45,777 nucleotides of DNA from a virus. Shown in pieces: positions 3,267 through 35,280 of this stretch. The stretch covers positions 1-45,777 of the IMG/VR virus record IMGVR_UViG_3300020183_000138, one strand, 5' to 3'. The position numbers and the translations under genes are program-made. A model generated the notes under the pieces. It was not told the origin of the DNA. It saw only the letters and a list, made by a program, of their open reading frames with translations, and ran no database searches. Positions within the stretch are counted from its first letter, which is position 1; every line of letters starts with the position of its first letter.

Positions 3267-3330
3267 TATTGGAGTATCCTGATGGCGAATGAACGCGACT
3301 AGTTATTTTAACTACATAACGACCCTTATT

Positions 3331-3606
3331 TAGCTATAAAACCCACATCAACTTTAAGGCTAAACGGAGGTTTATAGCTAAGAGAAAGACAGTTGTTGTC
3401 AGAGAGACCCCTTCTCTTAATTGGTGACGGTGACGGTGAGTGCTACACTACTAGACTATTATTAGTTTTAAACCCCAAACCGTCAAAGCAACCGTCACCG
3501 TCACTAGTCGCTGGGGGGGTCTCTTGGGCAACCCTGTCCGACAACCGTCACCGTCACTAGTCGCTGGGGGGGTCTCTTGGGCAACCCTGTCCTTCTCTTA
3601 GCTATA
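3331..3606. repeat. Inverted-repeat element in gene-free stretch
   Basis: The stretch 3267-3689 has no gene. It is built of repeats. The outer arms TATAGCTAAGAGAAAGACAG (3373-3392) and CTGTCCTTCTCTTAGCTATA (3587-3606) are complementary at 19 of 20 positions. Inside them, GGTGACGGTGACGGT (3423-3437) is complementary to ACCGTCACCGTCAC (3491-3504 and again about 3544-3557), and GAGAGACCCC (left) matches GGGGTCTC (right). A further TTAGCTATAAAACC copy near 3331 pairs with GGTTTATAGCTAA near 3369. The order of motifs is the same from both ends, giving an imperfect inverted repeat of about 65 bp per arm. Confidence 0.8.
3489..3592. repeat. 51-bp tandem direct repeat (2 copies)
   Basis: 3489-3539 and 3542-3592 are identical over 51 bp, with a period of 53 bp. 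Each copy holds ACCGTCACCGTCACTAG and CTGGGGGGGTCTCTTGGG. The tandem copy duplicates part of the right arm of the surrounding inverted-repeat element. Two copies without spacers exclude a CRISPR array. Confidence 0.9.
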
Positions 3607-22378: not shown

Positions 22379-22385
22379 AGTGGTA

Positions 22386-22676: not shown

Positions 22677-22721
22677 GCAAACGGAGCACCCACGAGGTGC
22701 TACGGAAAGTTCTCCGAGATA

Positions 22722-22808: not shown

Positions 22809-22810
22809 CT

Positions 22811-22844
22811 AAAAAAAAAGACAGGAGGGCTGGTGGCCCTCCTG
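22811..22844 (-). terminator. Strong intrinsic terminator
   Basis: Minus-strand CAGGAGGG/CCCTCCTG (8 perfect pairs, 7-nt loop) followed by TCTTTTTTTTT. It ends the gene at 22909; a further hairpin (ACCCCGA...TCGGGGT, 22853-22902) lies between. Confidence 0.9.
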
Positions 22845-22908
22845 CTTTGTCACCCCGAGGTAGAACCCGTTAAAGAACTACTACCGGGGTAGTCGGGGTG
22901 TGACGATC

Positions 22909-23457
22909 TCATGGGGTGCAGATGAGATCGCCATCTACGGTGATCTTCTTGCGCTCCTGGAGAATGCGCAAGACTTGACCGACTGCGCTCGGGCTGAGCC
23001 TCTGGCGCTTGGCCCAGCGCCGAACGTCGGTTCGGGCGATGCGCCCGTTAGCCGAGTGGCTCTTGATGATCTCCAGCACCACGTCCGTCGCCGTAATGGG
23101 CGACGTGCTTGGCCGAGTCTTGTCCGTTCTGGGCGTCACAGACTTGATTTTCATCTTGGCCAGCAGCGACTTGTAGCCGTTGACGCTTATGCCCACGGCG
23201 TCCGCACACCACGCTGTGCTGCGAATCGGGTGTTGGCTCCGGATCCATGCAGCCTGCTCCGGAGAGCAGACATACCCGGTCCTGCCCTTTCGGCGAAGAG
23301 ATCCGGGAAACCTTGAAGAAACGGACTGCTTGGGCTGGGGCTTGTCCTGGCTAGGACTAGGCTCCAGGAGGGTACGCAGGCACAGACCTGCGCTCCGACA
23401 TCTCGAGTCGAGGTTCTCGATGTCGGAGAGCAACAAACGAAGGGTTTTGATTGTCAT
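22909..23457 (-). CDS. Putative DNA-binding (HTH) protein
   Basis: About 182 aa from ATG 23455-23457 (MTIKTLRLLLSDIENLD). The middle has a helix-turn-helix-like stretch (SPEQAAWIRSQHPIRSTAWC ... GISVNGYKSLLAKM). The C-terminus (VVLEIIKSHSANGRIARTDV ... LSPSAVGQVLRILQERKKI) reads like a winged-helix domain. The sequence is basic overall. A five-codon frame (ATGAACCCGTTATGA) with an AAAGGA upstream overlaps the start and may couple translation. Likely a regulator; the target is unknown. G+C is clearly higher than in the virion operon. Confidence 0.55.
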   Translation of the reverse strand: MTIKTLRLLLSDIENLDSRCRSAGLCLRTLLEPSPSQDKPQPKQSVSSRFPGSLRRKGRTGYVCSPEQAAWIRSQHPIRSTAWCADAVGISVNGYKSLLAKMKIKSVTPRTDKTRPSTSPITATDVVLEIIKSHSANGRIARTDVRRWAKRQRLSPSAVGQVLRILQERKKITVDGDLICTP

Positions 23458-23593
23458 AACGGGTTCATTCCTTTGAGCAAAACTTTTAAATACTGCATAC
23501 ACGCGTATGCTGTATTCCCTACTGTTGCTCATCAGCAGGCGAAGAGGACGACAAACCTCTCGGCTTGCCGCCCCCGTGGAAACAAATGCACCG

Positions 23594-23998
23594 TCAGGCC
23601 GCCGGTCTAGGCTTACGCCCGGTCGGGTCGTCCTCCCCATAAGGGGATTCCCCCGTCAACTTAGGGTCAACGGGGGTGTTTGGTGTGTTGAAGGGGGTTG
23701 CCTCACCCAGCCCCATTATCTGGTCTAGCGAGAGCTGGCTAATGTCCAGCTCTGCCAGGAACTTGGGCTTGAATCTCTGTTGCACCTTTCTCATCATTTC
23801 GTGTGCAACGGCGTAGGACGTCTTTCGCCATACCCCCATACGGTCCTTGAGCAGGCCTCTGCCCTGCTCACAGTCCAGGATGACTATCGCGGTATCGACC
23901 ATCGCATCATCCATGTTGTCACTATCCATGGTCTCCCAGCTTTGGAGGTCATACCGGAAAGCGAGGGTGACGAACTTAGGTAGCCCTGTTAGGCTCAT
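23594..23998 (-). CDS. Hypothetical protein, 134 aa
   Basis: No family is recognised. N-terminal strand/helix part with an acidic segment (ETMDSDNMDDAMVDTAIVIL), a helix (YAVAHEMMRKVQQRFKPKFL), and a Pro-rich, probably disordered C-terminus (NTPNTPVDPKLTGESPYGED). ATG overlaps the TGA of the lysozyme-like gene, so they are translationally coupled. Confidence 0.6.
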   Translation of the reverse strand: MSLTGLPKFVTLAFRYDLQSWETMDSDNMDDAMVDTAIVILDCEQGRGLLKDRMGVWRKTSYAVAHEMMRKVQQRFKPKFLAELDISQLSLDQIMGLGEATPFNTPNTPVDPKLTGESPYGEDDPTGRKPRPAA

Positions 23999-24405
23999 TG
24001 GAGCTCCTTCCTAACCTTAGCCCAGTAGGCCTTGGTTGCTGCCTTCTTGTAGCCCTTGGGTCCACCGTTGTGGATCCTGGCTAGATCCTCCCAGGTGGCG
24101 TTCTTGGGGGCGTAGCGGGCCATATAGGCCTTGATGATCTCTCGGGCATAGGCGGGGTCCTTGACCGCCTTGTAGCCCCTAGCCTTGAGCTCGGGGCGAT
24201 GCTCGACAGCGTCCGCCCAGTAATCATACCAAATCTGGTATGCACCCAGGGCCTTACCGTTGTCGCCAACAGCGTTGTTAGGGTCCTTAAACGACCCCGA
24301 CTCCACCTGCTGGATTGCATCCAGGAAGGTGTCCCAGGTTTGAGCCTGGGCAGGAACGGCGATATACAACATCATCGCCACGACTATTCCGATAACAGGC
24401 TTCAT
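23995..24405 (-). CDS. Secreted lysozyme/transglycosylase-like endolysin
   Basis: 136 aa. N-terminal signal peptide (MKPVIGIVVAMMLYIAVPAQA, cleavage after AQA) precedes a lysozyme-fold core: IQQVESGSF places a candidate catalytic Glu at 35, NAVGDNGKALGAYQI follows (lysozyme-type 'GAYQI'), and ARIHNGGPKGY closes the fold. The pattern matches destabilase/SLT-like muramidases. It would cleave peptidoglycan in the periplasm after Sec export, possibly without needing a holin. ATG has AGGAG about 9 nt upstream. The next gene upstream encodes a membrane protein. Confidence 0.75.
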   Translation of the reverse strand: MKPVIGIVVAMMLYIAVPAQAQTWDTFLDAIQQVESGSFKDPNNAVGDNGKALGAYQIWYDYWADAVEHRPELKARGYKAVKDPAYAREIIKAYMARYAPKNATWEDLARIHNGGPKGYKKAATKAYWAKVRKELQ

Positions 24406-24642
24406 TGCATTTGTCTCCTGTAACGAGGGAATACCTGAGGGAACGTCCCGCAGGTGAAAGCCTAAACCCCGAACTGCTAAGGGTTTAGGCTGAAGGGCAA
24501 AGTGAAGACAGCCTCCGGAGTTTAGCCCGGAGACCGCCTATGGGAAAAAGACCCACGGCCCCACCCGGGACCGCAGGCCTAAAGGTGTATTAAAACCCTC
24601 CGCCTGGATCGTTAGATCAACAGGCGGGGGCGTTCCGGGGGA
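24406..24642 (-). other. Structured intergenic spacer
   Basis: No gene is seen. On the minus strand there are three hairpins in order: CGCCTG/CAGGCG with GGGTTTTAAT after it (terminator-like, near 24600-24635), CTCCGG/CCGGAG (near 24515-24535), and AGCCTAAACCC/GGGTTTAGGCT (24459-24491, 11 perfect pairs). The last lies about 55 nt before the lysozyme-like start and may affect its translation. Confidence 0.55.
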
Positions 24643-25065
24643 CTAGCGCTTGCCGGCTTCCAGGATCGGCAACCCTGCTTCTGTGGGAACATATATCACA
24701 CTGTTCCCGCCTTTGTCCAGGTTCTCAATCCAAAGCCAACGCAAGTAGCTTTCATTGCCCTTCAGGCTGTCGCCAATAATCTTATTGGCCTCCGCCACGC
24801 CACGTGCCCTCTCGACCTCTGCGGCAGCGAGGCTCTTTGCAGCCTCAAGCTTTGCCTCTGCCTCCAAAATGGAGATGCGGCGATTCTGCTCTGCCTGAGC
24901 ATACTCTGCCTCACCCGCCATCGTAGCGGAGTAGACCTTGTATTTGGGGTAGGTATAGCCGCAGGCACCCACCAGGGCACCAACGCCTACAATGACCGTT
25001 GCGGTCATCCAAATGCGGCTCTTCATGCTGACGGGTTGACGCTTTTCTTCGTAGTAACTCAACAT
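24643..25065 (-). CDS. Membrane protein with SPFH/prohibitin-like tail
   Basis: 140 aa. A TM segment at about 19-35 (MTATVIVGVGALVGACG) includes a possible lipobox (VGAC). Then a long Ala/Glu-rich helix (AEYAQAEQNRRISILEAEAK ... VERARGVAEANKIIGDSLKG) and a C-terminal YLRWLWIENL ... SVIYVPTEAGLPILEA. The helix plus 'LRWLWI...VIYVPT' resembles the end of SPFH (stomatin/prohibitin) proteins, but the SPFH domain itself is absent. ATG with AAAAGGA 5-6 nt upstream. Perhaps modulates host membrane proteases. Confidence 0.6.
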   Translation of the reverse strand: MLSYYEEKRQPVSMKSRIWMTATVIVGVGALVGACGYTYPKYKVYSATMAGEAEYAQAEQNRRISILEAEAKLEAAKSLAAAEVERARGVAEANKIIGDSLKGNESYLRWLWIENLDKGGNSVIYVPTEAGLPILEAGKR

Positions 25066-25094
25066 TGTTTCCTTTTCTTAAGTGTCAAACGGGA

Positions 25095-25168
25095 TGGGCC
25101 GGGTGGGATTCGAACCCACGTCGGATCGATTATGAGTCGATGGCTCTAGGCCGCTGAGCTACCAGCCC
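25095..25168 (-). tRNA. tRNA with CAU anticodon (Met or Ile2)
   Basis: Cloverleaf with acceptor GGGCTGG/CCGGCCC, anticodon loop ACTCATAAT (CAT), T-arm GGTTCGAATCC and discriminator A. CCA is not encoded. CAU may be elongator Met or, after lysidine modification, Ile(AUA); the sequence alone does not decide. No initiator-type features are evident. Confidence 0.92.
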
Positions 25169-25174
25169 AAATGA

Positions 25175-25459
25175 TTGACCAAGATTCCTGGTTTTGAGAC
25201 TTGGTCTTCCTACACACTTTCTCTAAGAGAGTCCCTAGAGACGGTAGACTTTGTTGCGCTTCAATGGGTACCAACCGACCTCGACGTCGAGGTGCAACAG
25301 GATTTAACAGACTTGGCAGAGTATCGTAGCAGCGCTACGGTACAACGCCTACTCCACTCCCATGGGCCTATCACCACGGGAGAAGCTGAACTCGGCCTCA
25401 ACGAGCTGGGGCCTATAGCTCCCCAGCTCTCAGCTTTGCTCAGACGGTTTTACATGTAA
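25175..25459 (+). CDS. Doubtful plus-strand ORF, 94 aa
   Basis: Fills a 487-bp stretch (25169-25655) where I see no minus-strand gene. TTG start with no ribosome-binding site. The product (for example LTDLAEYRSSATVQRLLHSH) is soluble and unrecognised. A plus-strand gene here would oppose all neighbours. The remainder, 25460-25655, shows nothing I can name. Either a real antisense gene or a non-coding spacer. Confidence 0.22.
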   Translation: MTKIPGFETWSSYTLSLRESLETVDFVALQWVPTDLDVEVQQDLTDLAEYRSSATVQRLLHSHGPITTGEAELGLNELGPIAPQLSALLRRFYM

Positions 25460-25655
25460 CTGGGAGCCCGTAACTCCAAGCCAGCTAGGTTGAACGGCCT
25501 AGCCCGTGCTGCCATTTGCCCGAGGCTGCTTACGGGTCGTCATTAACGTATGACAGGCAGACAAGCCGTCCACCAACGGAGAATCCAGGTGCACCTGACC
25601 CTCAAGGTATGCCTTGCAGTACAAGACAAGCCTTGAGAGCCAGGCCCATACTCTC

Positions 25656-25988
25656 TCATCTCGTGCTCGTTGCCTCCTCCAGATCTAGGATGTCCTGCAG
25701 CCTGTTATTCAACATCTGCAGGCTGTGCTGGATCGTGGCTCCGAGCGCCTCCCTCTCGGAATCGGGCATGTCTACCCATGCCTTGACGATCTCCCGGCTT
25801 CCATAAGAAGCCTGTGGCAGGGTGTATTGAACCACATCGACGATGTCTCCCAGATACTCCCAGTTATAGGAGTCCAGGCTGCGCTTAGCCTGGAAGAGAT
25901 TGCCCTCCAGGACGGCCCTGAGGCCCGACCCTGGGATGATTCCGTGCTTGACGTAGCGCATCAACGCTTCAATTGTTGTTGACCTCAT
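25656..25988 (-). CDS. Conserved phage-type protein ('HGIxPGxxLxAVL')
   Basis: 110 aa. YVKHGIIPGSGLRAVLEGNL, then DIVDVVQYTLPQASYGSREI and a short acidic tail match a small protein seen in very many phages, with consensus 'YxxHGIxPGxFLxAVLxNDL ... LPxxSxGSxExVxAW'. Its biochemical role is not known to me. ATG with AAAGGAAACAA upstream. Confidence 0.72.
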   Translation of the reverse strand: MRSTTIEALMRYVKHGIIPGSGLRAVLEGNLFQAKRSLDSYNWEYLGDIVDVVQYTLPQASYGSREIVKAWVDMPDSEREALGATIQHSLQMLNNRLQDILDLEEATSTR

Positions 25989-26245
25989 TTGTTTCCTTTC
26001 TGTGAGGATCGTAGGGAGTCCAGAGTTGCATTCTGGGCTCCGTGGCGAACCACACCGATGGGTTTCGACCTACGCAGGTGCCTAATACCACCTGCAGTAG
26101 ATTCCTTTGTCGGAGGAATCTACCCGGACCGTAGCTGGTCCAATGCTATAAGGCCTGCCACTTTGCGGTGAAACAGGCCTTATAAGCGGTCCTCTGAAGG
26201 CTACTAGAGAGGAGTATGTCATGTTACCCCATATATGAGGGTATT

Positions 26246-26440
26246 TTAGTCACCATCATCCTCTTCAAAATCGTCCATATCGACCTCTACCAGCTCATCC
26301 ACATTGAAGTTAGCGGCAGGATTTATTCCAATATTATTTGAATACTGGAGTTGCGCTCGTTGGTAGTCGTGGTTTTTGACGTAAGTAGATATGACAATGT
26401 CAGTGTAAGGGAAACAATTTTCCTTTTTTCGTCTGCCCAT
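26246..26440 (-). CDS. Small acidic-tailed protein, 64 aa
   Basis: No family is recognised. Basic start (MGRRKKENCF), Tyr/Asn-rich middle, and a strongly acidic end (VDMDDFEEDDGD). AGG about 10 nt before the ATG. The stop is followed by a hairpin (TACCC/GGGGTA). Confidence 0.55.
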   Translation of the reverse strand: MGRRKKENCFPYTDIVISTYVKNHDYQRAQLQYSNNIGINPAANFNVDELVEVDMDDFEEDDGD

Positions 26441-26506
26441 TAGTGCATACCTAACTTGAAAGCTCTGATGAACTCTTTATAAATCATGTTAACCTGCTTA
26501 TTGCTT

Positions 26507-27187
26507 TTATTTAGCTCGTGCATTTCCACCTAAATCCATCGTTTCAACGAACGGATCGCCGTCAATCACGACGCCGCAGGCAACAATTGGCTTCTTAAGG
26601 AACGCAGCACCGTACTGCATGCTCCAGTGATTGCGGTCAACTCCGCAACCAACGTTCATACCCCAGATCTTTGCAGTAGGCCCAGCCTGGTACCAGATGC
26701 CACAGGCGCTATGGTAGTGGCCTATGACGGTAGGCTGCATGCGCATCTTGGCAGCACTGAAGGCAGGATGCTGACCGCCACAGCCTTCTCCATGGTAGTA
26801 GTAGACTCCATCTACTTCAATCTGCTCCACCCACTTCCAGGCATCGGTGGCGTATAGATCATTGAACTCCTTGAGGTACATTTTGGGGATGCCCATCTTG
26901 GCATTCAAGCGCAATACGCGCATATCGTGGTTGCCTACTGTAATAACAGCATTTGGGAACTCCTTGTAGAGCTTCTGCACCTGGTTGTAGGCCTGCAGAT
27001 ATTCTTCCTTTGCCCCGGGGTTGTCAGGATGCTTGTCGTGGAAGCTGATGCAGTGGTGATCCACTACATCGCCTACATGTACCACCTTATCCGTCTTCCA
27101 TTTCTTAGCTACATTCTTCAGGAACTGCACATAGCCCTTATGCATGGCCGGTACGTGCGTGTCGCCGATAACCAGAACTCTGCTCAT
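26507..27187 (-). CDS. Calcineurin-like metallophosphoesterase
   Basis: 226 aa from ATG 27185-27187, with AGGAG about 7 nt upstream. The five metal-ligand motifs are in order: GDTH (8-11), GDVVDH (39-44), GNHD (85-88), HGE (132-134) and GHYH (156-159). This is the dinuclear-metal phosphoesterase fold that hydrolyses phosphomonoesters, phosphodiesters or nucleotides. The substrate cannot be told. No signal peptide, so cytoplasmic. In phages, such enzymes have been linked to RNA/DNA end repair or nucleotide turnover, which is inference here. Confidence 0.88.
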   Translation of the reverse strand: MSRVLVIGDTHVPAMHKGYVQFLKNVAKKWKTDKVVHVGDVVDHHCISFHDKHPDNPGAKEEYLQAYNQVQKLYKEFPNAVITVGNHDMRVLRLNAKMGIPKMYLKEFNDLYATDAWKWVEQIEVDGVYYYHGEGCGGQHPAFSAAKMRMQPTVIGHYHSACGIWYQAGPTAKIWGMNVGCGVDRNHWSMQYGAAFLKKPIVACGVVIDGDPFVETMDLGGNARAK

Positions 27188-27263
27188 GGATTCTCCTGTG
27201 GCTGCAGTATGCAGCGTCGGGAGCATAAGCATGATGCTTGAGGCTTGTCAACTCCTGATACCT

Positions 27264-27300
27264 AAAAAAAGCCAGGGTGCAATTAAGCACCCAAGTTGGC
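27264..27300 (-). terminator. Intrinsic terminator
   Basis: Minus strand: GCCA...GGGTGC-TTAATT-GCACCC...GGC followed by seven T. It ends the 27334-27525 cassette. A sibling of this hairpin without the T-run occurs near 28906-28925. Confidence 0.85.
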
Positions 27301-27333
27301 TTGAGCCGGTTAACGTCCTGCTCAGGACGCGTA

Positions 27334-27525
27334 CTATGCGTTGCTCAGGGCGGCTCTCGCCGCCTCCCAGTAGCCCTTAAAGGCTACCCCCTGCACGAGC
27401 CGCACGTCTGGCCGCTGTTGGCCAAACGGCAGCCAGCCGTAGCGTACGAATACCGTTGGCAGGCAGCCTGGCTGCGTGATCTTGACAGCGGCATGACCGC
27501 CTAAGTAGATGTGCTCTACCGTCAT
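27334..27525 (-). CDS. Small cassette protein, 63 aa
   Basis: No family is recognised. MTVEHIYLGGHAAVKITQPG ... FKGYWEAARAALSNA looks like a small alpha/beta protein without membrane segments. GGAGG lies 5-6 nt before the ATG. It is a complete cassette: promoter, hairpin leader, gene, terminator. Confidence 0.7.
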   Translation of the reverse strand: MTVEHIYLGGHAAVKITQPGCLPTVFVRYGWLPFGQQRPDVRLVQGVAFKGYWEAARAALSNA

Positions 27526-27541
27526 AACATCCTCCTTTCAA

Positions 27542-27594
27542 GGATCTATATTGTTTTGGCGGTCCAGCAGAATTGCTGGAATACCTATAGACCC
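27542..27594 (-). promoter_or_regulatory. Conserved hairpin leader RNA, copy 1
   Basis: 5' UTR of the 63-aa gene. Outer stem GGGTCTATA/TATAGATCC, inner hairpin TCCAGCA-ATTC-TGCTGGA (7 bp). Same architecture as three other leaders. The outer stem starts almost at the predicted +1. Confidence 0.75.
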
Positions 27595-27633
27595 TCTATG
27601 TATATATACCTCAAAATACCCTTATTTTTAACT
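27594..27633 (-). promoter_or_regulatory. Phage-type promoter, copy 1
   Basis: Minus strand: TAAAAATA, 14 nt, TATATATACATAGAGG. Directly upstream of leader copy 1. Confidence 0.75.
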
Positions 27634-27663
27634 CTTGTTTAGGCACAGCTAAATTAGGTAATA

Positions 27664-27702
27664 CCTAAAAGAAAGCTAGGGTGTTAGTCCCTAGCTTTCT
27701 TT
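27664..27702 (-). terminator. Intrinsic terminator
   Basis: Minus-strand AAAGAAAGCTAGGG/CCCTAGCTTTCTTT, 14 perfect pairs, then TTAGG. Ends the 242-aa gene's cassette. Distal to it (27637-27670) is a sequence also found at 31026-31066. Confidence 0.85.
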
Positions 27703-27728
27703 CTATGCTGTACTGCCACTGCGCTGCG

Positions 27729-28457
27729 TTATCCCTCTTCGTAGTTCCTGATAGCCCAGTACACACGACCCGCCGCATTCGTGAGCCACAGGGCACTGCG
27801 ACGCACAGCCTGCTCGTGCATGGGTAGCTGGCCAATCAGCTCGCTCTGCCGCATGCTGACGTAGGCATCACTCGACAGAACGCTCTCCGAGATTGTGCTG
27901 ATCATCGCCTCAAGCCGCTCTTGCGCCACCGCAAGGCAGTCTGCGTAAACGCCGACTCGTTGCAGGAAACGCTCGATCTGCTCAAGCACCTGCCGTACCT
28001 CGATGGCTTCGACCGGTTGATCACCATCGATCAGCCAGCTCACGCCAACCGCGGCCCTTGCGAGCGCATCGATGCGATCGACTGTCTGAATCACCGGATC
28101 AGGATCCTCGAGTCCCGGCAATTCATCGGTCGACACAAATGCCTGGAGATGCGCATCAAACGCTCTCTGGCAAGCTTCGTATTCCTTCATCAACTCGGGC
28201 ACTAGCGCGTTGGCCTCCAGCTCACAAATGTCTGGAGATGGGCGCTCGGTCGGGAGGCTGCTGAAGACTTCCTTCCAGGCTGGGCTCTTGAGCAAGTTCG
28301 GGTCGGTTCGGGCTCGTAATCCCAGCCAACTTGCCTGATGCAGTGTCTGCAGCGATGGGGGTTTCGATCCAACCGAATCTTGAAACGACTCTAGCTGCGC
28401 GGATGCATCTAACCACCACGAGATGATTAGGTTCGTCTCAGGGGCCGAGATATCCAT
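27729..28457 (-). CDS. Cassette protein, 242 aa, helical, unknown
   Basis: No family is recognised. Mostly helical and acidic, no signal or TM segment; the C-terminal half contains long amphipathic helices (VLEQIERFLQRVGVYADCLA). The first ATG is 28455-28457, but its ribosome-binding site (GAGGAAAACAAA) lies about 30 nt upstream. The codon at the usual distance is ATC (28476-28478), in frame, so translation may begin there or the site may have drifted. Confidence 0.65.
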   Translation of the reverse strand: MDISAPETNLIISWWLDASAQLESFQDSVGSKPPSLQTLHQASWLGLRARTDPNLLKSPAWKEVFSSLPTERPSPDICELEANALVPELMKEYEACQRAFDAHLQAFVSTDELPGLEDPDPVIQTVDRIDALARAAVGVSWLIDGDQPVEAIEVRQVLEQIERFLQRVGVYADCLAVAQERLEAMISTISESVLSSDAYVSMRQSELIGQLPMHEQAVRRSALWLTNAAGRVYWAIRNYEEG

Positions 28458-28496
28458 GCGTTCGGGTAATGGATTGATTTTGTTTTCCTCTTTCGT

Positions 28497-28549
28497 GGAT
28501 CTATATTGATTTGGCGGTCCAGCAGAGTTGCTGGAATACCTATAGATCC
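28497..28549 (-). promoter_or_regulatory. Conserved hairpin leader RNA, copy 2
   Basis: GGATCTATA/TATAGATCC outer stem (9 perfect pairs) and TCCAGCA-ACTC-TGCTGGA inner hairpin. 5' UTR of the 242-aa gene. Confidence 0.75.
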
Positions 28550-28590
28550 TCTGTACATATATTTATCACAAATAGAGCCTGTATTTAGGG
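28550..28590 (-). promoter_or_regulatory. Phage-type promoter, copy 2 (degenerate)
   Basis: CTAAATACAGG ... ATTTGTGATAAATATATGTACAGAGG. The upstream box is shortened and the TATA box altered, but position before the leader is conserved. Confidence 0.5.
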
Positions 28591-28598
28591 GGATACCT

Positions 28599-28630
28599 AA
28601 AAAGAAAATCCCCCCCTTGATGGGGGGATT
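28599..28630 (-). terminator. Intrinsic terminator
   Basis: Minus-strand AATCCCCCC/GGGGGGATT followed by TTCTTTTTAGG. Ends the 74-codon gene. Confidence 0.8.
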
Positions 28631-28646
28631 AGATGCCTTTAGCGGG

Positions 28647-28868
28647 TCACTTCGCACACGCCCTCAGGGCGTTGAAGACTGTCAAAACATCCCCGGGTAA
28701 CAGCTCCAGGTTTTCCTCCTCCGCCCTATAAGCCCCTTCAAGGAGCTCACTCAGCCAAGGTTGGAACCCTGCCGCTGCCACTGGTCCGGAGACCCGACGG
28801 ATCTCCAACACCTCCACTAACGTGCGCTCGTACTCCGCCATCAACATCTTAGCAATTGGGTTATTCAT
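28647..28868 (-). CDS. Small cassette protein, 73 aa
   Basis: Starts at ATG 28866-28868 with AAAGGGG about 7 nt upstream. The sequence (MNNPIAKMLMAEYERTLVEV ... ENLELLPGDVLTVFNALRA) is a helical soluble protein of no recognised family. It is preceded by a 340-nt structured spacer and followed by a terminator. A longer upstream frame exists but overlaps the structured spacer and lacks a ribosome-binding site. Confidence 0.62.
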   Translation of the reverse strand: MNNPIAKMLMAEYERTLVEVLEIRRVSGPVAAAGFQPWLSELLEGAYRAEEENLELLPGDVLTVFNALRACAK

Positions 28869-29207
28869 GCCCAACCCCTTTCTGCCCCTGTGGGGCAAAG
28901 CCAGCCAGGGTGCAATTAAGCACTCAAGGCGGCGAGCCCGAAGGCTCAAAAGGACAAACTTTAAGCAGTTTAAGGACCTGCTTAGGTCCGGTGGGGACGG
29001 AGGGCTACTGCCACTCCACCTGTGCAACGGTTGCTTAGCACTAAACCCGAAGCTTTGTCGGGAAGGCTGTCCCAGCACCACCAAATGTTTAAGCAGTTTT
29101 TTACTGACATGCTTAGGTCAGCGGATCGTAGGCCGTAGCCCGGAACTGATCCAAGTAATGGGGAGTCGGAGTTTTCACTCCGATCCCCCGGGGGAGGAGG
29201 CCGGGAA
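28869..29207 (-). ncRNA. Structured RNA region with two pseudoknot motifs
   Basis: No gene is credible here. On the minus strand two copies of a motif occur: GGACC-TAAGCA-GGTCC then TTAAAC-TGCTTAA (28961-28989) and TGACC-TAAGCAT-GTCA then ...ACTGCTTAAAC (29089-29120). In each, the hairpin loop TAAGCA is complementary to the TGCTTA that follows, an H-type pseudoknot. The stems differ by compensating changes (GGAC/GTCC against TGAC/GTCA). Other hairpins: CGGAG/CTCCG, CCCGA/TCGGG. It could be a long 5' UTR or a separate RNA. Confidence 0.55.
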
Positions 29208-29444
29208 TCAGGCGGGGGTGTAACCCCTCGCCCAGGATCCCACCGACACCCTCCAACGCGGCTGTCGAATGACAGCCACCCCGTGGGTGTCTTCTACCAG
29301 GGCCTCGAAGTTATCGAGGTCCTCAGCGGTGCGGATCTGGCGAACCAGATCCACAACGCTCTCGGCGACATCAGCCGAGAGGTTAGAGGCGAGAGATACC
29401 ATGGCCCCGTTCACCGTGGCCATACGATAGGTATTTAGTCCCAT
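29208..29444 (-). CDS. Small cassette protein, probably leaderless, 78 aa
   Basis: MGLNTYRMATVNGAMVSLAS ... VIRQPRWRVSVGSWARGYTPA. No family is recognised; helical, soluble. The ATG (29442-29444) is embedded in the promoter's TATACATATATATGGG, at the place where transcripts of the sibling promoters should start, and no ribosome-binding site precedes it or the next ATG. Hence a leaderless mRNA is proposed. Confidence 0.6.
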   Translation of the reverse strand: MGLNTYRMATVNGAMVSLASNLSADVAESVVDLVRQIRTAEDLDNFEALVEDTHGVAVIRQPRWRVSVGSWARGYTPA

Positions 29445-29481
29445 ATATATGTATAGCACGAATAGGCCCTATTTTTAGCCC
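29440..29481 (-). promoter_or_regulatory. Phage-type promoter, copy 7 (leaderless variant)
   Basis: TAAAAATA, 14 nt, TATACATATATATGGG. The final ATG is the start codon of the gene at 29208. Confidence 0.75.
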
Positions 29482-29506
29482 TTAAAGACAGGGGGGCCTA
29501 TTAGCT

Positions 29507-29539
29507 AAAAAGAAGTGCACCCCGAAGGGTGGCACTTCT
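29507..29539 (-). terminator. Intrinsic terminator
   Basis: Minus-strand AGAAGTGC-C-ACCC-TTCG-GGGT-GCACTTCT followed by TTTTAGC, with a UUCG tetraloop. Ends the 29710-30126 transcript. Confidence 0.9.
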
Positions 29540-29621
29540 AGTACTTCCGACCAAGGGCTAGCTTATGCCCTCCCCCGGTTAGGGGTATCGGAGTCTTTGG
29601 CCGTAGCCGTGCTAGGCGTAC

Positions 29622-29696
29622 TTACCTAGCAACCCAACGCTCCATCCTGATCACTACGGGTTTCGGGGTTTGCGAAAATTCCCCGTAGCGCCTCAT
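29622..29696 (-). CDS. Possible 24-aa ORF
   Basis: MRRYGEFSQTPKPVVIRMER and four more residues. It starts 13 nt after the stop of the 138-aa gene, with AGGGGAA about 8 nt before the ATG. Basic peptide, unrecognised. The remaining spacer to the terminator (29540-29621) holds nothing I can name. Confidence 0.35.
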   Translation of the reverse strand: MRRYGEFSQTPKPVVIRMERWVAR

Positions 29697-29709
29697 CAGC
29701 AAATTCCCC

Positions 29710-30126
29710 TTACTGGCAGAACTTGCTGTTAGAGATGGCTTTGGTCTCTCGATTAACGACGAAGATCGTCGCAACCTTTGAAAACTTAGCCATCTCCCCC
29801 GACGCCTGCAGGCCTTGCAGTGTCGGGAAGGGAACCAGAATAACATCAACGTTGACGCTATTCTGCAAGAGGTACAACTCACGGAGGATTTCCTCCGTCA
29901 TTGTGAACCTCTTGGTGACCAGTTCCACGACTTTGCCGTTAGGCAAGGTCCTGGACTTGGTCACGTCATCTGACCCCATGGAGAGAGCTCTAGACCGCTC
30001 CGGAGAGCAGCCTGAGAGGATCTCCCCGGACTCAAAGTTGAACGGATGAGGTGAACTGAAGTTCACCACGTTCAACCCCGAGCTCAGGGTCACGGACGGA
30101 GCGCTCTCAATGGTGAGAGTGTCCAT
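29710..30126 (-). CDS. Cassette protein, probably leaderless, 138 aa
   Basis: MDTLTIESAPSVTLSSGLNV ... LVPFPTLQGLQASGEMAKFS. No family is recognised; strand-rich N-terminus and a helix/strand C-terminus, soluble. The ATG (30124-30126) lies inside the promoter sequence TATACATATATATGGAC and no ribosome-binding site can precede it on the transcript, as for the gene at 29208. Confidence 0.65.
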   Translation of the reverse strand: MDTLTIESAPSVTLSSGLNVVNFSSPHPFNFESGEILSGCSPERSRALSMGSDDVTKSRTLPNGKVVELVTKRFTMTEEILRELYLLQNSVNVDVILVPFPTLQGLQASGEMAKFSKVATIFVVNRETKAISNSKFCQ

Positions 30127-30163
30127 ATATATGTATACCGCAAAGGGGGGCCTATTTTAGACC
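30122..30163 (-). promoter_or_regulatory. Phage-type promoter, copy 8 (leaderless variant)
   Basis: CTAAAATAGG ... TTTGCGGTATACATATATATGG read in two halves: CTAAAATA upstream box and TATACATATATATGGA. Same total spacing as the others. Contains the start codon of the gene at 29710. Confidence 0.75.
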
Positions 30164-30184
30164 TTACCACAAGCCTAAATTATT

Positions 30185-30922
30185 CTAATCTGCTTTTTCA
30201 AGGATTAAGAATATCCAGGGGGCAATTTGGTTTATTTTTGTAGCAGAGTTGTCGTATAGGGTTCCTCTGATAATGCAAAGCGAAGATACGACTGCGACTA
30301 GCTCATTATTTTGGTTTAGAACTGGGCCCCCAGAATCGCCGTACCATATAGTTCCGTTATAGCAAAGCATTTTAATGTAGAACGGATCTTCTTTTAAGGT
30401 GCCGTAGTAGCAGAAAGTATTAGCGTCACTTTTCTTTCTATACCTGCCTCCGTGCCCTACAACTGTAAGGGGCTCTCCTCTAACTAGGGCATCCGTACAA
30501 ATCGGTATAGGCTCCTCTAAACAGGGCTCATATAGCCTAGCGACAGCAATATCGATAATGTAGCTGGAGCCTATTTTAAACAATGTAGGGAATGTGACCT
30601 CATCGATGCAGTAGCGCACTCCATTAGTTTCAAACCAATAGGCTTCTGAGCTCTCTACTACGTGCCCTGCTGTAAGTACGTGGTAGGAGTCTATGAGAGT
30701 TGCAGTTCCAATTAAGTCCCCAGCATAGTTGGTAATGCGCCCTACCGCAGGCATTTCGTTATCTGCAATTAATGTAAACCCTCTTAGATAAAAGGGTTGT
30801 GACTCTGGTGTTTCTACAGAAACTACAGCGGGCTTTTGAGTAGTGCATCCTGCCCAAAGCATAATACAAATAGTGAGTATGCATATGCTTAGCTGGACTA
30901 ACCTTTTGTGTGGCGTCTTCAT
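30185..30922 (-). CDS. Trypsin-like serine protease lipoprotein
   Basis: 245 aa. Signal sequence with lipobox WAGC (Cys 26) indicates lipid anchoring outside the inner membrane. The chymotrypsin-fold triad is complete: LTAGHVV (His 87), DIAVARL (Asp 124) and GDSGGPV (Ser 197). Three or four further cysteines could form disulfides. A secreted trypsin-like protease is rare in phages; it may process envelope or virion proteins or alter infected-cell surfaces. No copy of the AT-rich promoter precedes it; TATAAT-like GTATAATTATATGG near 30990-31005 may serve. Confidence 0.88.
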   Translation of the reverse strand: MKTPHKRLVQLSICILTICIMLWAGCTTQKPAVVSVETPESQPFYLRGFTLIADNEMPAVGRITNYAGDLIGTATLIDSYHVLTAGHVVESSEAYWFETNGVRYCIDEVTFPTLFKIGSSYIIDIAVARLYEPCLEEPIPICTDALVRGEPLTVVGHGGRYRKKSDANTFCYYGTLKEDPFYIKMLCYNGTIWYGDSGGPVLNQNNELVAVVSSLCIIRGTLYDNSATKINQIAPWIFLILEKAD

Positions 30923-31066
30923 GATATAAACATCCTATATCTCTGATCTGCACGCAAAAATAAATTTAAACTATCTTAAAAATCTAAGCCATATAATTAT
31001 ACTACTAATGTAGGGCTGGCAGCAGTGTTTGGGCATAGCTAAATTAAGTAATACCTAAAAAAAAGA

Positions 31067-31099
31067 ACCCCCATACGCTTTTGGCGTATAGGGGTTCTT
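31067..31099 (-). terminator. Strong intrinsic terminator
   Basis: Minus-strand AAGAACCCCTATACGC/GCGTATGGGGGTTCTT followed by TTTTTT. Ends the 232-aa gene. Confidence 0.92.
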
Positions 31100-31118
31100 G
31101 TGGCAGCGGAATCAGCTA

Positions 31119-31817
31119 TTAGCTGTTCCACCACCACTTGAGGCTTTGCCAGAAGCTGGGGTTAGCCAGCTTCTCGATGCTCGCCTCGTCGGCGAGGCGC
31201 TCCTTCTGGATAGTTTCCAGCACCGCCTCGTTGCGCGGAGCTTGGTTCAACAGCGCCGTGTACTCAGGCACGTGCAACGTGTCCTGCCCCAGCACGGCCC
31301 GGGTGTGGGCCTCTTGGAGACGGTTGATAACCGCCACCTTCACCCGGGAGGCCTCCCCGTTTTCCGCCTCGGCCATGTTCAGGCCGGTGGCAAGAGTCTT
31401 GCCAAAGCCTGAGGGCTTTTCAACTTCATTACCGGCGTACACCGGCACGAGGTCAGAGAATTGCTCCTTGGCCACCCGGACGTAGGTCCGGGTGTCCTTC
31501 TCAGGCTTGGCCTCTGGCTTGGCCTCTGGCTTGGCCTCGGTCTTGGCCTCTGGCTTGGCGGGCTTCAACGCCGCCATGATCTCAGTCAAGCGGCTTTCCG
31601 CCTGAACGAGGGCGACCTTCTCCGTCAAAAGCCGGGCCTCAGCCCGAGCCTTCACAACCAAGGCGAGCTCTTCGCTCGCCTTGAGAAGCAGCTGTGCTTG
31701 CTGCTGCTCCTGGGGCTTGGCGACATCCTCAGCATTGCAGCTGCGGACGGTGACGAACATGCCGCTAAACGTCAGGATGGCGGCACAGATGACGAGAAGG
31801 CTATTCTTGAAATTCAT
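31119..31817 (-). CDS. Exported/membrane-anchored protein with KPEA repeats
   Basis: 232 aa. An N-terminal hydrophobic segment (LLVICAAILTFSGMFVTV) may be a signal or anchor. Then an Ala/Glu-rich helix, a run of (K-P-E-A) repeats at about 88-107, a globular part and a C-terminal aromatic end SLKWWWNS. The repeat looks like a periplasmic spacer. Function unknown. GAGGAAACA directly before the ATG. Complete cassette with promoter, leader and terminator. Confidence 0.7.
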   Translation of the reverse strand: MNFKNSLLVICAAILTFSGMFVTVRSCNAEDVAKPQEQQQAQLLLKASEELALVVKARAEARLLTEKVALVQAESRLTEIMAALKPAKPEAKTEAKPEAKPEAKPEKDTRTYVRVAKEQFSDLVPVYAGNEVEKPSGFGKTLATGLNMAEAENGEASRVKVAVINRLQEAHTRAVLGQDTLHVPEYTALLNQAPRNEAVLETIQKERLADEASIEKLANPSFWQSLKWWWNS

Positions 31818-31833
31818 TGTTTCCTCTTTTCGG

Positions 31834-31886
31834 GGATCTATATTGTTTTGGTGGTCTAGCAGAGTTGCTGGAATACCTATAGAACC
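31834..31886 (-). promoter_or_regulatory. Conserved hairpin leader RNA, copy 3
   Basis: GGTTCTATA/TATAGATCC outer stem (one T-T mismatch) and TCCAGCA-ACTC-TGCTAGA inner hairpin (one mismatch). 5' UTR of the 232-aa gene. Confidence 0.72.
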
Positions 31887-31925
31887 TCTAGATATATATA
31901 CCTTAAAACACCCCTATTTTTAGAC
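31885..31925 (-). promoter_or_regulatory. Phage-type promoter, copy 3
   Basis: CTAAAAATAGG, then TATATATATCTAGAGG after the 14-nt spacing. Confidence 0.75.
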
Positions 31926-31940
31926 ATATACCGGATAGCT

Positions 31941-31977
31941 AAAAAAAGCCCCCTACACCGTGATGGTGGTAGGGGGT
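31941..31977 (-). terminator. Intrinsic terminator
   Basis: Minus-strand CCCCCTAC ... GTAGGGGG with an inner CC/GG part, followed by CTTTTTTTAGC. Ends the 157-aa gene. Confidence 0.88.
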
Positions 31978-32047
31978 GGGGGATGCCGGTCAGAGGCATT
32001 AGTTCCCTCATTACCCCACCGCGGGGGGTCTGACCAACTTTCGTGTG

Positions 32048-32521
32048 TCAGGCCGTGGCCGTAGCCACGGCCTGTCCCGCCAAGGCGGGATCCCGTTCAT
32101 CCTCAGGAGAGGACGAACGGCTGGTCGTCGGCTCCGGCACCGAAGGCTCCTTCTGCGGCGGGGTGTGGGTAGCAGCCGGCGCCTGCTCTATGAACTTAGC
32201 CTTGACCTCGGCCTTGCTCACCCAGCCTTGCCGGATAGCCATGACCAGCAAGGTCAGGCCGATGCCAGCCACCATGGCGCCCACCAGAGCCATGATCTGA
32301 GTGTAGCTGACCGACGCCTGCAGACTCTTGTTGGCCTGCAGGGTTGCGTGAGACGCCGACTCGTCGAGGGCCCAGCTGATGGGGTTCCACCAGCGCTCTC
32401 CCGTCTCGACGATGGGGGCCACCTGGCTCGGCACCGACATCGAGAACTGAGCCACGAGGCTCAGAACCACCATGGCGAGGACGGGGATGGTGATAAACCC
32501 AATGATCTTCAAAGTCTTCAT
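32048..32521 (-). CDS. Two-TM membrane protein of cassette
   Basis: 157 aa. TM1 at about 5-28 (KIIGFITIPVLAMVVLSLVA), a periplasmic loop with RWWNPISW, TM2 at about 73-92 (IMALVGAMVAGIGLTLLVM), then a Pro/Ser/Glu-rich cytoplasmic tail. The aromatic WWN motif recalls WWWN in the 232-aa cassette protein. GAGGAAACA before the ATG. Function unknown; host-envelope modification is plausible. Confidence 0.7.
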   Translation of the reverse strand: MKTLKIIGFITIPVLAMVVLSLVAQFSMSVPSQVAPIVETGERWWNPISWALDESASHATLQANKSLQASVSYTQIMALVGAMVAGIGLTLLVMAIRQGWVSKAEVKAKFIEQAPAATHTPPQKEPSVPEPTTSRSSSPEDERDPALAGQAVATATA

Positions 32522-32535
32522 TGTTTCCTCTTTTC

Positions 32536-32592
32536 GGAGGCTTGTATTGTTTTGGTTGTCCAGCAGAGTTGCTGGAATACCTACAAGGCCTC
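32536..32592 (-). promoter_or_regulatory. Conserved hairpin leader RNA, copy 4
   Basis: Outer stem GAGGC-C-TTGTA/TACAA-GCCTC differs from the other copies at several paired positions but keeps pairing; inner hairpin TCCAGCA-ACTC-TGCTGGA is unchanged. This is covariation evidence for the structure. Confidence 0.78.
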
Positions 32593-32631
32593 TATGTATC
32601 TATACCGCAATACAGGCCTATTTTTATACCT
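32588..32631 (-). promoter_or_regulatory. Phage-type promoter, copy 4
   Basis: TAAAAATA, 14 nt, TATAGATACATAGAGG. Confidence 0.75.
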
Positions 32632-32649
32632 ATAAAAGGCAGTACAACG

Positions 32650-32690
32650 CTGTAAGTATATATAACGCAAAAGGGGGGTATTTTTAGCCC
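32650..32690 (-). promoter_or_regulatory. Phage-type promoter, copy 5 (tandem)
   Basis: TAAAAATA, 14 nt, TATATATACTTACAGC. Lies about 60 bp upstream of copy 4, so the membrane-protein gene has two promoters in tandem. Confidence 0.65.
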
Positions 32691-32714
32691 CCTTTTAGGG
32701 GGTCTTTATTAGCT

Positions 32715-32750
32715 AAAAAAAGAAGATTGGTTGTGTACACCCAACCTTCT
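32715..32750 (-). terminator. Intrinsic terminator of RNA cassette
   Basis: Minus-strand AGAAGGTTGGGTGT / ACACAACCAATCTTCT (minor bulges) then TTTTTAGC. Marks the 3' end of the cassette that lacks a gene. Confidence 0.8.
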
Positions 32751-32948
32751 TTTGGACATTTGCGGGAGTCCACCCTTACCCATTTCGGGATGCCTGCCTC
32801 GGGGCCGTTCCCGTACCGGTGGTATTCCGGCATTCCTCAACAATAAGTGTCCGCTACCCATAGGCAGATACGGGTAGTAGGAAAGGGCCCAATGCATCAA
32901 GAGGATGCATTTACCTTTCTGGGCTTGTTCAAGACCTACAAGGCCTCT
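32715..32948 (-). ncRNA. Candidate non-coding RNA, about 234 nt
   Basis: Bounded by promoter copy 6 and a terminator. Predicted hairpins in order: GGC-TTGT/ACAA-GCC at the 5' end, AATGCAT/ATGCATT, CTACCC/GGGTAG, a GGACA/TGTCC closing stem enclosing ATGCC/GGCAT and CCC/GGG. The only frame of size (63 codons, ATG 32895-32897) lacks a ribosome-binding site and runs into the terminator's T-tract; an 18-codon frame (MHPLDALGPF...) follows AAAGG. A regulatory or structural RNA is more likely than a protein. Confidence 0.55.
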
Positions 32949-32985
32949 ATGTATATATATCTCAAATAGGGCCTATTTTTAGCCC
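32943..32985 (-). promoter_or_regulatory. Phage-type promoter, copy 6
   Basis: CTAAAAATAGG, TATATATACATAGAGG with 14-nt spacing; closest to the consensus. Drives the candidate RNA. Confidence 0.78.
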
Positions 32986-32987
32986 TA

Positions 32988-33353
32988 TTATGCCCACTGC
33001 TTTAGGTAGGTATCTAAAGGCTCTTCCAGCTTTACCCACCCTGTATCTGGGATGGCTATAACTGCCTGCTTAGGGGTATACAGCTTACTCCTGCTTATAC
33101 GCCAGCCCCCAGGTATACAAGCATTCATAGCAGCCGTGGTAGTAACGGTTTTCCAGTTGCAGTAGTTGATCCAAAAGGTGTCATAGCCGTTTTCATCAAT
33201 AGTTCTTTTAACTATTGCACTTTTAAACAGTATGCCTTGAATAACTGTGGTAAGTCCATCTTCCGTAATTGTCACCCCTCTATTGTCTGCCCGAGACATG
33301 TACTCTTTGCCTGCAATAAAGTGATCTCGTAATCGGCGATTGCGTTGATTCAT
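32988..33353 (-). CDS. Hypothetical protein, 121 aa
   Basis: Starts at ATG 33351-33353 (MNQRNRRLRDHFIAGKEYMS) with AAAGGA about 7 nt upstream; a longer frame into the portal gene is a shadow. Strand-rich soluble protein (TEDGLTTVIQGILFKSAIVK, NYCNWKTVTTTAAMNACI). No family recognised. It lies just after the portal gene, behind a terminator-like hairpin. Confidence 0.62.
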   Translation of the reverse strand: MNQRNRRLRDHFIAGKEYMSRADNRGVTITEDGLTTVIQGILFKSAIVKRTIDENGYDTFWINYCNWKTVTTTAAMNACIPGGWRISRSKLYTPKQAVIAIPDTGWVKLEEPLDTYLKQWA

Positions 33354-33370
33354 ATGTATTCCTTTAAATG

Positions 33371-33396
33371 CAAACAACCCGGATTGCTCCGGGTTG
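33371..33396 (-). terminator. Terminator-like hairpin after portal gene
   Basis: Minus-strand CAACCCGG/CCGGGTTG (8 perfect pairs, 6-nt loop) followed by TTTGCATTT. Possibly a partial terminator. Confidence 0.6.
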
Positions 33397-33420
33397 CTGT
33401 GTTTGAGTTTTATTTGATTA

Positions 33421-35280
33421 TTACTGCGGAGGAGGCATCGGCTGGCGTAGTTGCTCTTTGCCTTGATTAGCTGCCTGCTGGGTAATACCGTCCAGCATGC
33501 TCTTGACCACGGCATGTAGGTTTGGATCCTGGCCCTTGATCTGATCCAGGATCTGTCTACGCTGCGGAGAGCCAAGCGGGGCTGTAGCCATGATCTCGTT
33601 GACTCGAGCCTGGGCATCCGCAAAGAAGCTGTCCAGATCCTTGCTTGGGCCTGCTGCCATTGGCCCTGCAACGCCGTTGACGGGCATAGGAGGGGCCATT
33701 GGCGGACCGCCAAGGTTGGGCCCACCTGGCATGCCACCGGCTCCCATTGGAGCCCCTGGGCCTGCGATCATTGCGCCAGGAGGGGCAGCCATGATCTGCT
33801 CGTTCTCTTCCGCCTTGCGCATCTTGTCCATGTACTCCTTCTCGGCCCGCATCTTGAACTCCTGCTCTGCCTGGCGCTTCTTGAAGGTATCCTTCCAGTC
33901 GAGGCCAAAGAGAGTGAGTACATCCTGCTCTGCAGCAACGCCTTGCATCATCATCTGCAGCATGAGCATGCGGCGTTCGATGTCGTCGGCATGGGTAGGC
34001 TTCGTGAGGTTGACTTCACAAGGCGCCCAGTTAAGAATTGCGCTGACTCTGTCCACAATCCAAGTAAGAGTTGTCTGCAAGCCGTGCAGGAAGTGCGTCT
34101 CACCAGCCTCAAAGAGTCGAGCTGCAAAGGGAGCAGTCTGGGCACTTAGAGTCTTTCGATACAGCTCTACCGGAACACCCATGCCGTTGAGGAAGTCTGC
34201 TTGAGCTTGCTCTAGGAGTTCAGGTACGACAAAAGCCTTACCCTCGCCGCCAAGCAACTGATAGTTAACCGGGATAGGCATCCACTGCCAGCCTGTAGGG
34301 TCTCTACGAGCTCGCTCCACTGACCTCAACACGGACTGTCCAAAGCTGCCAATATTGACTGACTTCATAAAGTCACCGCCTGCTCCGACAGAGGCGGGGG
34401 TTACGAAGCGAATTGGCAACATATGGTCTAAAGCAATGCTTTCGTTATTGCGCTTGAGGATCTGGGCAAGATAGGCATCTCGGAAACCGGCAATAACCGG
34501 AGGCAGACCCCATACGCCCATCTTAATATCGCTTAGATTGCCTAAAGAGAAGTGGTGCACCATGTTGTCGCTGAACTGAAACAGGGTTCCAGATCGGACA
34601 GACTGCACCAGGGCCCAAGGCACACTCTCCAGGTACTTCTTATTGCCGCTCTGGATCTGCTGTATGTCCTGCGGAGGCACTTCATAGAAGTAGTCAGGCT
34701 TTCCACCATATTGGTGAGCTACAATGCGCATTTGCTTGATGGGCCAGCGCTTGATGTAGATTTCGTTTTCCTGCAAAGTAGGACGATCGTCTGGATTCAA
34801 GCAAGTAGCGTGCTTATTGCAGCTGCTGCAGGTAAAACTGAACCCGTGATTCAGCGTAAACTTGTAATCAACGCTTTGAATTGGTCTGCTGGCTCCGCAT
34901 TTATCACAAGTCAGAAAGCGCTTGAATGGGGCCAGTACGGAAATGCAGCTATTGCCGTATACCTTTACATCCCGGCCAATCATGAACAGCAAAGACTTAA
35001 GATCCAGCTTTTCAATCAGAAACTTCTTGTACTGATTAGCCTTTTCCTCGTCGTCAGCCAATAGATTGATGTCCGTGCCGGTGAAGTACGAAACCACGTA
35101 CTCAGTAGCTTGGGCAAACGTTCTATTGCTGTAGTACATCGTCTCCGCAATTTCAAACGCTTCGTTGAGATTGGTAGGAAGGTGCAGCGAAGCGTAGTCC
35201 AGGAACGGACTTGGGACGTGCTCTGCGTGCGACAGAGACCGTCGAGCTGGCATCTGCGGATTGGACGAAAAGTCAGGCAT
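33421..35280 (-). CDS. Portal protein with zinc-ribbon-like insert
   Basis: 619 aa. Helical N-terminus (EAFEIAETMYYSNRTFAQAT), then a core with IYIKRWPIKQMRIV, MVHHFSLGNLSDI, GLPPVIAGFRDAYLAQIL and a long C-terminal helical part: the order and length typical of portal proteins of large phages. A CxxC pair (C125, C128) and a second CxxC (C151, C154) plus C160 form a likely zinc site, unusual for a portal. Residues about 500-560 are a Gly/Pro/Met-rich linker. AGAGGAA before the ATG. The portal forms the dodecameric DNA gate of the capsid. Confidence 0.75.
   Translation of the reverse strand: MPDFSSNPQMPARRSLSHAEHVPSPFLDYASLHLPTNLNEAFEIAETMYYSNRTFAQATEYVVSYFTGTDINLLADDEEKANQYKKFLIEKLDLKSLLFMIGRDVKVYGNSCISVLAPFKRFLTCDKCGASRPIQSVDYKFTLNHGFSFTCSSCNKHATCLNPDDRPTLQENEIYIKRWPIKQMRIVAHQYGGKPDYFYEVPPQDIQQIQSGNKKYLESVPWALVQSVRSGTLFQFSDNMVHHFSLGNLSDIKMGVWGLPPVIAGFRDAYLAQILKRNNESIALDHMLPIRFVTPASVGAGGDFMKSVNIGSFGQSVLRSVERARRDPTGWQWMPIPVNYQLLGGEGKAFVVPELLEQAQADFLNGMGVPVELYRKTLSAQTAPFAARLFEAGETHFLHGLQTTLTWIVDRVSAILNWAPCEVNLTKPTHADDIERRMLMLQMMMQGVAAEQDVLTLFGLDWKDTFKKRQAEQEFKMRAEKEYMDKMRKAEENEQIMAAPPGAMIAGPGAPMGAGGMPGGPNLGGPPMAPPMPVNGVAGPMAAGPSKDLDSFFADAQARVNEIMATAPLGSPQRRQILDQIKGQDPNLHAVVKSMLDGITQQAANQGKEQLRQPMPPPQ

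Follow-up and report, generated by a model that had tools for sequence, protein, structure and literature searches.

The DNA considered here is a fragment of 45,777 nucleotides (nt) from a freshwater phage (IMG/VR record IMGVR_UViG_3300020183_000138; hereafter the window), whose predicted genes are carried by the minus strand. Between 27 and 33 kb, next to a putative portal-like gene (33421-35280, called by homology to Salmonella phage Arash), lies an array of moron-like cassettes, in which a single gene stands between its own promoter and terminator (Table 1). Most kilobases of this region have a G+C content of 0.53-0.56, versus 0.45-0.52 across most of the window. For most products of the open reading frames (ORFs) of the island (157, 232, 138, 78, 242, and 63 amino acids, aa), no family match was found. 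The subject of this report is the AT-rich promoter element that recurs in this island.

Table 1. Positions of the promoter copies, RNAs, ORFs, and related features in the window.
Feature	Position	Strand	Remarks
Promoter copy 1	32944..32981	-	exact boxes; predicted start A32948; would drive a non-coding RNA of ~230 nt
Promoter copy 2	32649..32686	-	upstream member of tandem pair, 60 nt apart
Promoter copy 3	32589..32626	-	downstream member of tandem pair
Promoter copy 4	31885..31922	-	predicted start A31889
Promoter copy 5	30122..30159	-	diverged; start codon at predicted start base 30126
Promoter copy 6	29440..29477	-	box 2 diverged; start codon at predicted start base 29444
Promoter copy 7	28550..28587	-	most diverged of the eight
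Promoter copy 8	27593..27630	-	exact boxes; predicted start A27597
Candidate structured non-coding RNA	32716..32948	-	~230 nt; ends in hairpin and T-run
Structured leader RNA (R1)	32519..32593	-	P1 stem variant TTGTA/TACAA, then Shine-Dalgarno sequence
Structured leader RNA	31815..31889	-	covarying 75-nt leader
Structured leader RNA	28478..28552	-	covarying 75-nt leader
Structured leader RNA	27523..27597	-	covarying 75-nt leader
ORF, 157 aa	32048..32521	-	hydrophobic N-terminal part; no family match
ORF, 232 aa	31119..31817	-	N-terminal hydrophobic stretch; terminator hairpin 31099-31063
ORF, 138 aa	29710..30126	-	predicted leaderless; homologue in L065
ORF, 78 aa	29208..29444	-	predicted leaderless
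ORF, 242 aa	27729..28457	-	no family match
ORF, 63 aa	27334..27525	-	behind promoter copy 8 and leader
Fused beta-beta'N RNA polymerase, 1639 aa	7353..12272	-	candidate reader; catalytic NADFDGD
Sigma70-type promoter TTGACA-N18-TATGCT	27222..27251	-	contrast; precedes metallophosphoesterase gene
Second-class motif CTAAATA-N14-GTTAAAATAACTAG	3293..3334	-	related motif beyond the island; further ones near 42300 and 26250

A preliminary description of the window had listed eight minus-strand copies of this element, and all of them are present at positions that were right to within 1 nt. The string that it proposed, TAAAAATA-N14-TATATATACATAGAGG, is reproduced without change by two copies alone (27593 and 32944), and the other six deviate from it; three of these carry 1-3 mismatches, and those at 28550, 29440, and 30122 are more diverged. 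The spacing is indeed fixed (22 nt from box start to box start in 8/8 copies), whereas the 14-nt segment does not vary freely, as it contains TTTTGNGG, whose conservation equals that of the boxes. The consensus of the second box is GNGGTATATATA, and TAAAAATA, 22 nt upstream of it, is conserved as strongly as box 2 itself. The full element has more than two boxes and extends over 40 nt, CTAAAAATA-N7-TTTTGNGG-TATATATAYATA-GAGG. The literal motif had no match in 100 shuffles, and a position weight matrix (PWM) built from the eight window sites (class 1) gave 42.8-61.2 bits at these sites, whereas no score above 6.2 was obtained from 60 Markov versions of the same DNA. Moreover, when each site was left out in turn, the omitted site still ranked best among the remaining places of the window.

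The element is shared by related phages. Relatives in IMG/VR were reached by two routes, the polymerase and the motif; the records G006 (174 kb) and G004 (129 kb) were read whole and the other relatives in part. Approximately 34 distinct sites were gathered from several phage lineages, with the three blocks in fixed register, and in each record the sites cluster in a single island adjoining the portal-like gene. In particular, a scan of G006 did not reveal the motif at random positions: its four sites (scores 46-58) all lie within one 1-kb island at 54.1-55.3 kb, and the next best place in the 174 kb scores 5. The tandem promoter pair recurs across lineages at a distance of 54-60 nt. An inverted segment of G004 carries two plus-strand copies, each ahead of a plus-strand unit. 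In the same record, a tandem array of GGGCCTAAAA-type units (G004:C1:50240-50380) is flanked by two divergent promoter copies. The class-1 PWM found no sites in the examined part of D69. Co-occurrence of the motif with the polymerase was assessed in the longer records, several motif-bearing contigs ending before the polymerase gene.

That the element is a promoter, as first proposed, is near certain and is strongly supported by fixed distances to start codons, a covarying leader at the predicted start, terminators upstream, and agreement in strand. All sites have a purine at position 12 of box 2, usually A and otherwise G. This position is the predicted transcription start; initiation would take place at this A (or G), 11 nt past the T that opens TATATATA. 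As determined by direct ORF reading (the automatic gene caller misses several island ORFs), ORFs start directly at position 12 (distance 0), roughly 72-95 nt away from it, or roughly 131 nt away, the last distance belonging to upstream members of tandem pairs. In three genes, those of units 5 and 6 of the window and of the homologous unit in the relative L065 (about 2040, minus strand), the A at position 12 is the A of the AUG. The 138-aa proteins of the window and L065 (MDTLTIESAPS... and MSTLTVENAPS...) are clearly homologous and start in the same register, which argues that their start is real. With the AUG exactly at the start base there is no room for a Shine-Dalgarno sequence, so these mRNAs would be leaderless, and the two window cassettes would be translated as such. 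A terminator-like T-run lies a few tens of nucleotides upstream of most sites, usually followed by TAGSTA.

Counted from this base, TAAAAATA would occupy about -33 to -26, TTTTGNGG about -19 to -12, and TATATATACAT -11 to -1. Sigma-type promoters with a -35 box and an extended -10 are arranged in this way, but their sequence is different. The AT-rich block near -10, TATATATACAT, finishes 1 nt before the invariant purine. The assertion that the element does not look like a sigma70 promoter was borne out with regard to sequence: when a sigma70 promoter was defined by a -35 TTGACA, a -10 TATAAT, and a spacing of 16-18 nt, none of seven sigma70-like matches in 22300-33800 coincided with a copy. 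The geometry is nonetheless sigma-like, with about 17 nt between the -35-like and -10-like hexamers.

Three other promoter types were considered and set aside. Promoters of the sigma28 type consist of TAAA, a gap, and the -10 element GCCGATAA; here the resemblance stops at the TAAA box and the approximate spacing. A T4-type late promoter, with a single TATAAATA box and no -35 element, is excluded by the conserved upstream TAAAAATA. An N4-like hairpin promoter was suggested by an inverted repeat around TAAAAATA, which is striking in few sites and absent from many; it is weak (within-site 9.7 versus cross-site 8.3, about 0.0075) and does not define the family.

The leader RNA begins 1-3 nt past the predicted start base and forms a stem that bears an A-rich bulge and is topped by an apical hairpin. 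In most units that are not leaderless, an ORF bearing a Shine-Dalgarno sequence begins about 72 nt past the start base. Compensatory changes affect 9 of the 17 pairs of the leader, a level reached in none of 500 shuffles, and shifting the partners destroys the signal. A covariance model confined the leader to these islands among the 1.08 Mb searched. Relatives of the non-coding RNA occur in L024, L050:1745-2235, and L065:3338-3535; over four lineages this RNA measures about 200-470 nt and has the common core CCGGAAUNCCACCGGUACGGGA...AAAUGGG. Neither the leader nor the non-coding RNA reached the gathering score of any family in Rfam 15, and permissive thresholds gave only sub-threshold matches. 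In unit 7 (28440-28490, minus strand), the leader ends ...GAGGAAAACAAAATC where other units carry ATG or GTG; its start may be either the ATC codon or an ATG about 24 nt downstream. A conserved RNA-like sequence (GCACGGCTACGGCCAAAG) is found 3' of the 138-aa unit both in the window (29520-29700, minus strand) and in L065 (about 1440-1620, minus strand), and this 3' region is another candidate structured RNA on the basis of its conservation.

A cassette would consist of a promoter, usually the shared hairpin leader, an ORF or a structured RNA, and a terminator, and it would be an exchangeable unit inserted beside the portal gene. The cargo varies between lineages. In G003 (L042:11190-12900), ORFs with RCC1-like repeats are found in island cassettes with the same promoter and leader.

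The fused polymerase of the window has Pfam Rpb2/Rpb1 domains, and both NADFDGD and the clamp-helix region, which binds sigma in bacteria, can be aligned. The enzyme is without the C-terminal half of beta'; a homologue of beta'C is encoded in G006 (C1:163560-165419; Rpb1_5, 2e-21), far from the fused polymerase. A sigma-like protein of 249 aa is encoded in G006 and G004, in the former again far from the fused polymerase (G006:C1:123875-124633). The window is without the genes for sigma and beta'C because it is a fragment. Sigma70_r3 is matched with 27.6 bits in G006 (cut-off 25.3) and 22.8 in G004 (below the cut-off), and region 4 is weak. The best matches of the predicted structure are sigma factors, with region 2 at residues 5-99 and region 4 at 178-247 (Z 9-10). 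Judged by these profile and structure matches, the phage factor appears to be a sigma70-family protein with regions 2, 3, and 4.

The closest cultured relative found, though a distant one, is Salmonella phage Arash (OQ632216; polymerase 31%, terminase 29%, and capsid 30%). Arash gp206 is 31% identical to the fused polymerase over 1287 aa, and the sigma-like protein is homologous to Arash gp10 (probability 95, E 3.6e-8). In Arash virions, gp206 (the fused polymerase) tops all proteins in spectra, and gp216 (beta'C) and gp10 (sigma) are also present (PMC10585845). As homologues of all three are found in Arash virions, a polymerase of the window type may be delivered by injection and transcribe early genes. 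Arash has a promoter family of its own (TYCAATAA, a gap, and TGGTATAAGTAA). Of its 41 sites, 40 lie on the minus strand, where the genes for replication and metabolism are found; none of the sites contains TTGAC, and the start is expected a few nucleotides past TATAAGTAA. This family of about 40 minus-strand sites precedes non-structural genes and is apparently undescribed. Promoters are not mentioned in the Arash paper (PMC10585845). Arash also carries five near-identical elements resembling miniature inverted-repeat transposable elements, near 26700, 66450, 100210, 138550, and 173330, with the inverted termini GGTTACAACGTTTG.

Taken together, the elements are probably promoters of a phage-encoded, sigma-dependent polymerase that expresses the array of moron-like cassettes; we infer both the reader and the timing. 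The reader would most likely be the phage polymerase, made up of beta-beta'N (encoded in the window), beta'C, and the sigma70-family protein (both encoded in G006). The earlier suggestion that the fused polymerase reads the promoters is accordingly kept as plausible, the evidence being indirect and drawn from the intact enzyme, the sigma-like protein, and the Arash virion homologues. It is quite possible, but proposed tentatively, that these phages have a complete bacterial-type transcription system (a beta-beta'N fusion, beta'C, and a true sigma70-family factor), perhaps packaged entirely in the virion, and that this system uses a sigma-type promoter code of its own. One class of promoters in that code would be dedicated to the exchangeable cassette island, whose units have the folded 5' leader in common or are leaderless.

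The main rival, which we regard as unlikely, is that a phage factor redirects the host RNA polymerase in the manner of T4 late transcription; this factor would be an activator or the sigma-like protein. The sigma-like protein, with its folds of regions 2, 3, and 4, and the sigma-like geometry of the motif would suit this mechanism, and the sigma70-type promoters indicate that host polymerase transcribes part of the phage. However, the phage encodes a polymerase whose catalytic motif is intact, and Arash virions contain the sigma homologue alongside the polymerase. Recognition by a host sigma factor, either sigma70 through the AT-rich -10 or an alternative sigma, with cassettes that are morons from host DNA, is improbable: the G+C content of the cassettes above most of the window, their own terminators, and the closeness of TATATA to the -10 hexamer would fit, but no copy has a sigma70 match and about 40 nt are conserved between phage lineages. 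In 257 Gb (84,980 bacterial and archaeal genomes), moreover, the exact pattern has only four scattered matches, although genuine host promoters would follow such a pattern less strictly. It is highly improbable that the elements are binding or recombination sites for replication, packaging, or cassette exchange with no promoter role, for although they lie exactly between modular cassettes and some copies have the inverted repeat around TAAAAATA, on either strand they point toward the unit that follows, the AUG is in fixed register, the leader RNA begins at the end of the motif, and the repeat is restricted to some sites and weak in the test.

Several observations weigh against recognition by a phage-encoded sigma-dependent polymerase. 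The model of the sigma-like protein has a mean pLDDT (predicted local distance difference test) of 63, and its gene lies outside the window. The class-1 PWM found no sites in Arash. The sigma70-type promoters of the same phage imply that the host polymerase is used too. One leader copy (L044:2414-2487) has no motif upstream and instead follows another promoter, one of sigma70 appearance; the leader is therefore a module distinct from the promoter. Finally, one would expect a phage polymerase to transcribe more of the genome than a single island; elsewhere only a weaker, related second class of motif was found. This class (CTAAATA-N14-GTTAAMATAAYTW) emerged from sub-threshold matches of the class-1 PWM and exceeds the Markov null in the window (7 versus 0.7), G006 (12 versus 1.8), G004 (16 versus 10), and G001 (11 versus 6.4), an excess that is modest and comes from a matrix fitted on the same sequences, and that we treat as a lead only. 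The second-class motif may serve these phages as their general promoter. A de novo k-mer search upstream of G006 and G004 genes gave nothing clear.

Two further features of the window were recorded outside the island. At 22410-22537 (minus strand), a long inverted repeat with arms of about 25 bp (AAATCGGTAGTGACGTTTGCTATGT) is followed by an extended -10 promoter-like sequence (TGCTATAAT) and an ATG. At 38047-40298 (minus strand), a pair of genes for a VWA/metallopeptidase-like protein (DUF2201) and an AAA ATPase adjoins structural genes.

Classical morons have host sigma70 promoters. The cassettes resemble them as single-gene units with their own promoter and terminator, placed between core genes and atypical in composition, and differ in that cassette after cassette has the same promoter, specific to the phage, and the same structured leader. 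The virion RNA polymerase of Thermus phage P23-45 reads AT-rich pre-early promoters, and the motif is absent from relatives without that polymerase (PMC10770324). As in P23-45, the phages studied here encode their own two-barrel polymerase and have an AT-rich motif ahead of a small gene set only. Unlike the single-chain, very diverged polymerases of P23-45, the enzyme is near bacterial beta/beta' and is accompanied by a sigma-like protein, and the motif is made up of three blocks and includes a distinct -35-like box. In jumbo phages of the phiKZ/AR9 type, early promoters contain a conserved AT-rich stretch of ~10 nt centred near -10 and precede a subset of genes (PMC7598289). An AT-rich block near -10 that was found from sequence, a gene subset, and an encoded multisubunit polymerase are common to both systems. 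In contrast, the beta/beta' genes of phiKZ/AR9 are split, whereas the present enzyme joins beta and half of beta' in one chain; furthermore, the characterised promoter-recognition subunit, that of their non-virion polymerase, bears no resemblance to sigma, while the candidate factor here is sigma70-like and a -35-like box is present. With Arash, the phages share the polymerase family, a homologue of sigma, and two-box promoters that lack TTGAC, but both box sequences differ, and the Arash sites are genome-wide, with no shared leader RNA detected there.

Thus, AT-rich promoters ahead of gene subsets in phages with their own polymerases are a known kind (PMC10770324, PMC7598289). Several points are new: the promoter sequence itself; a two-box arrangement of the sigma type in phages that also encode a beta-type polymerase and a protein of the sigma70 family; the restriction of the promoters to a cassette island; a covarying leader that the units have in common; and units predicted to be leaderless. 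No earlier description was found in the literature searched. Promoter recognition by phage multisubunit polymerases has been solved for very few enzymes. The present phages offer the enzyme, a candidate for its sigma factor, and ~34 natural promoters whose start base is predicted, and Arash is available as a cultured relative, which makes the question of recognition testable, and the shared leader and the leaderless cassettes add a puzzle at the level of translation.

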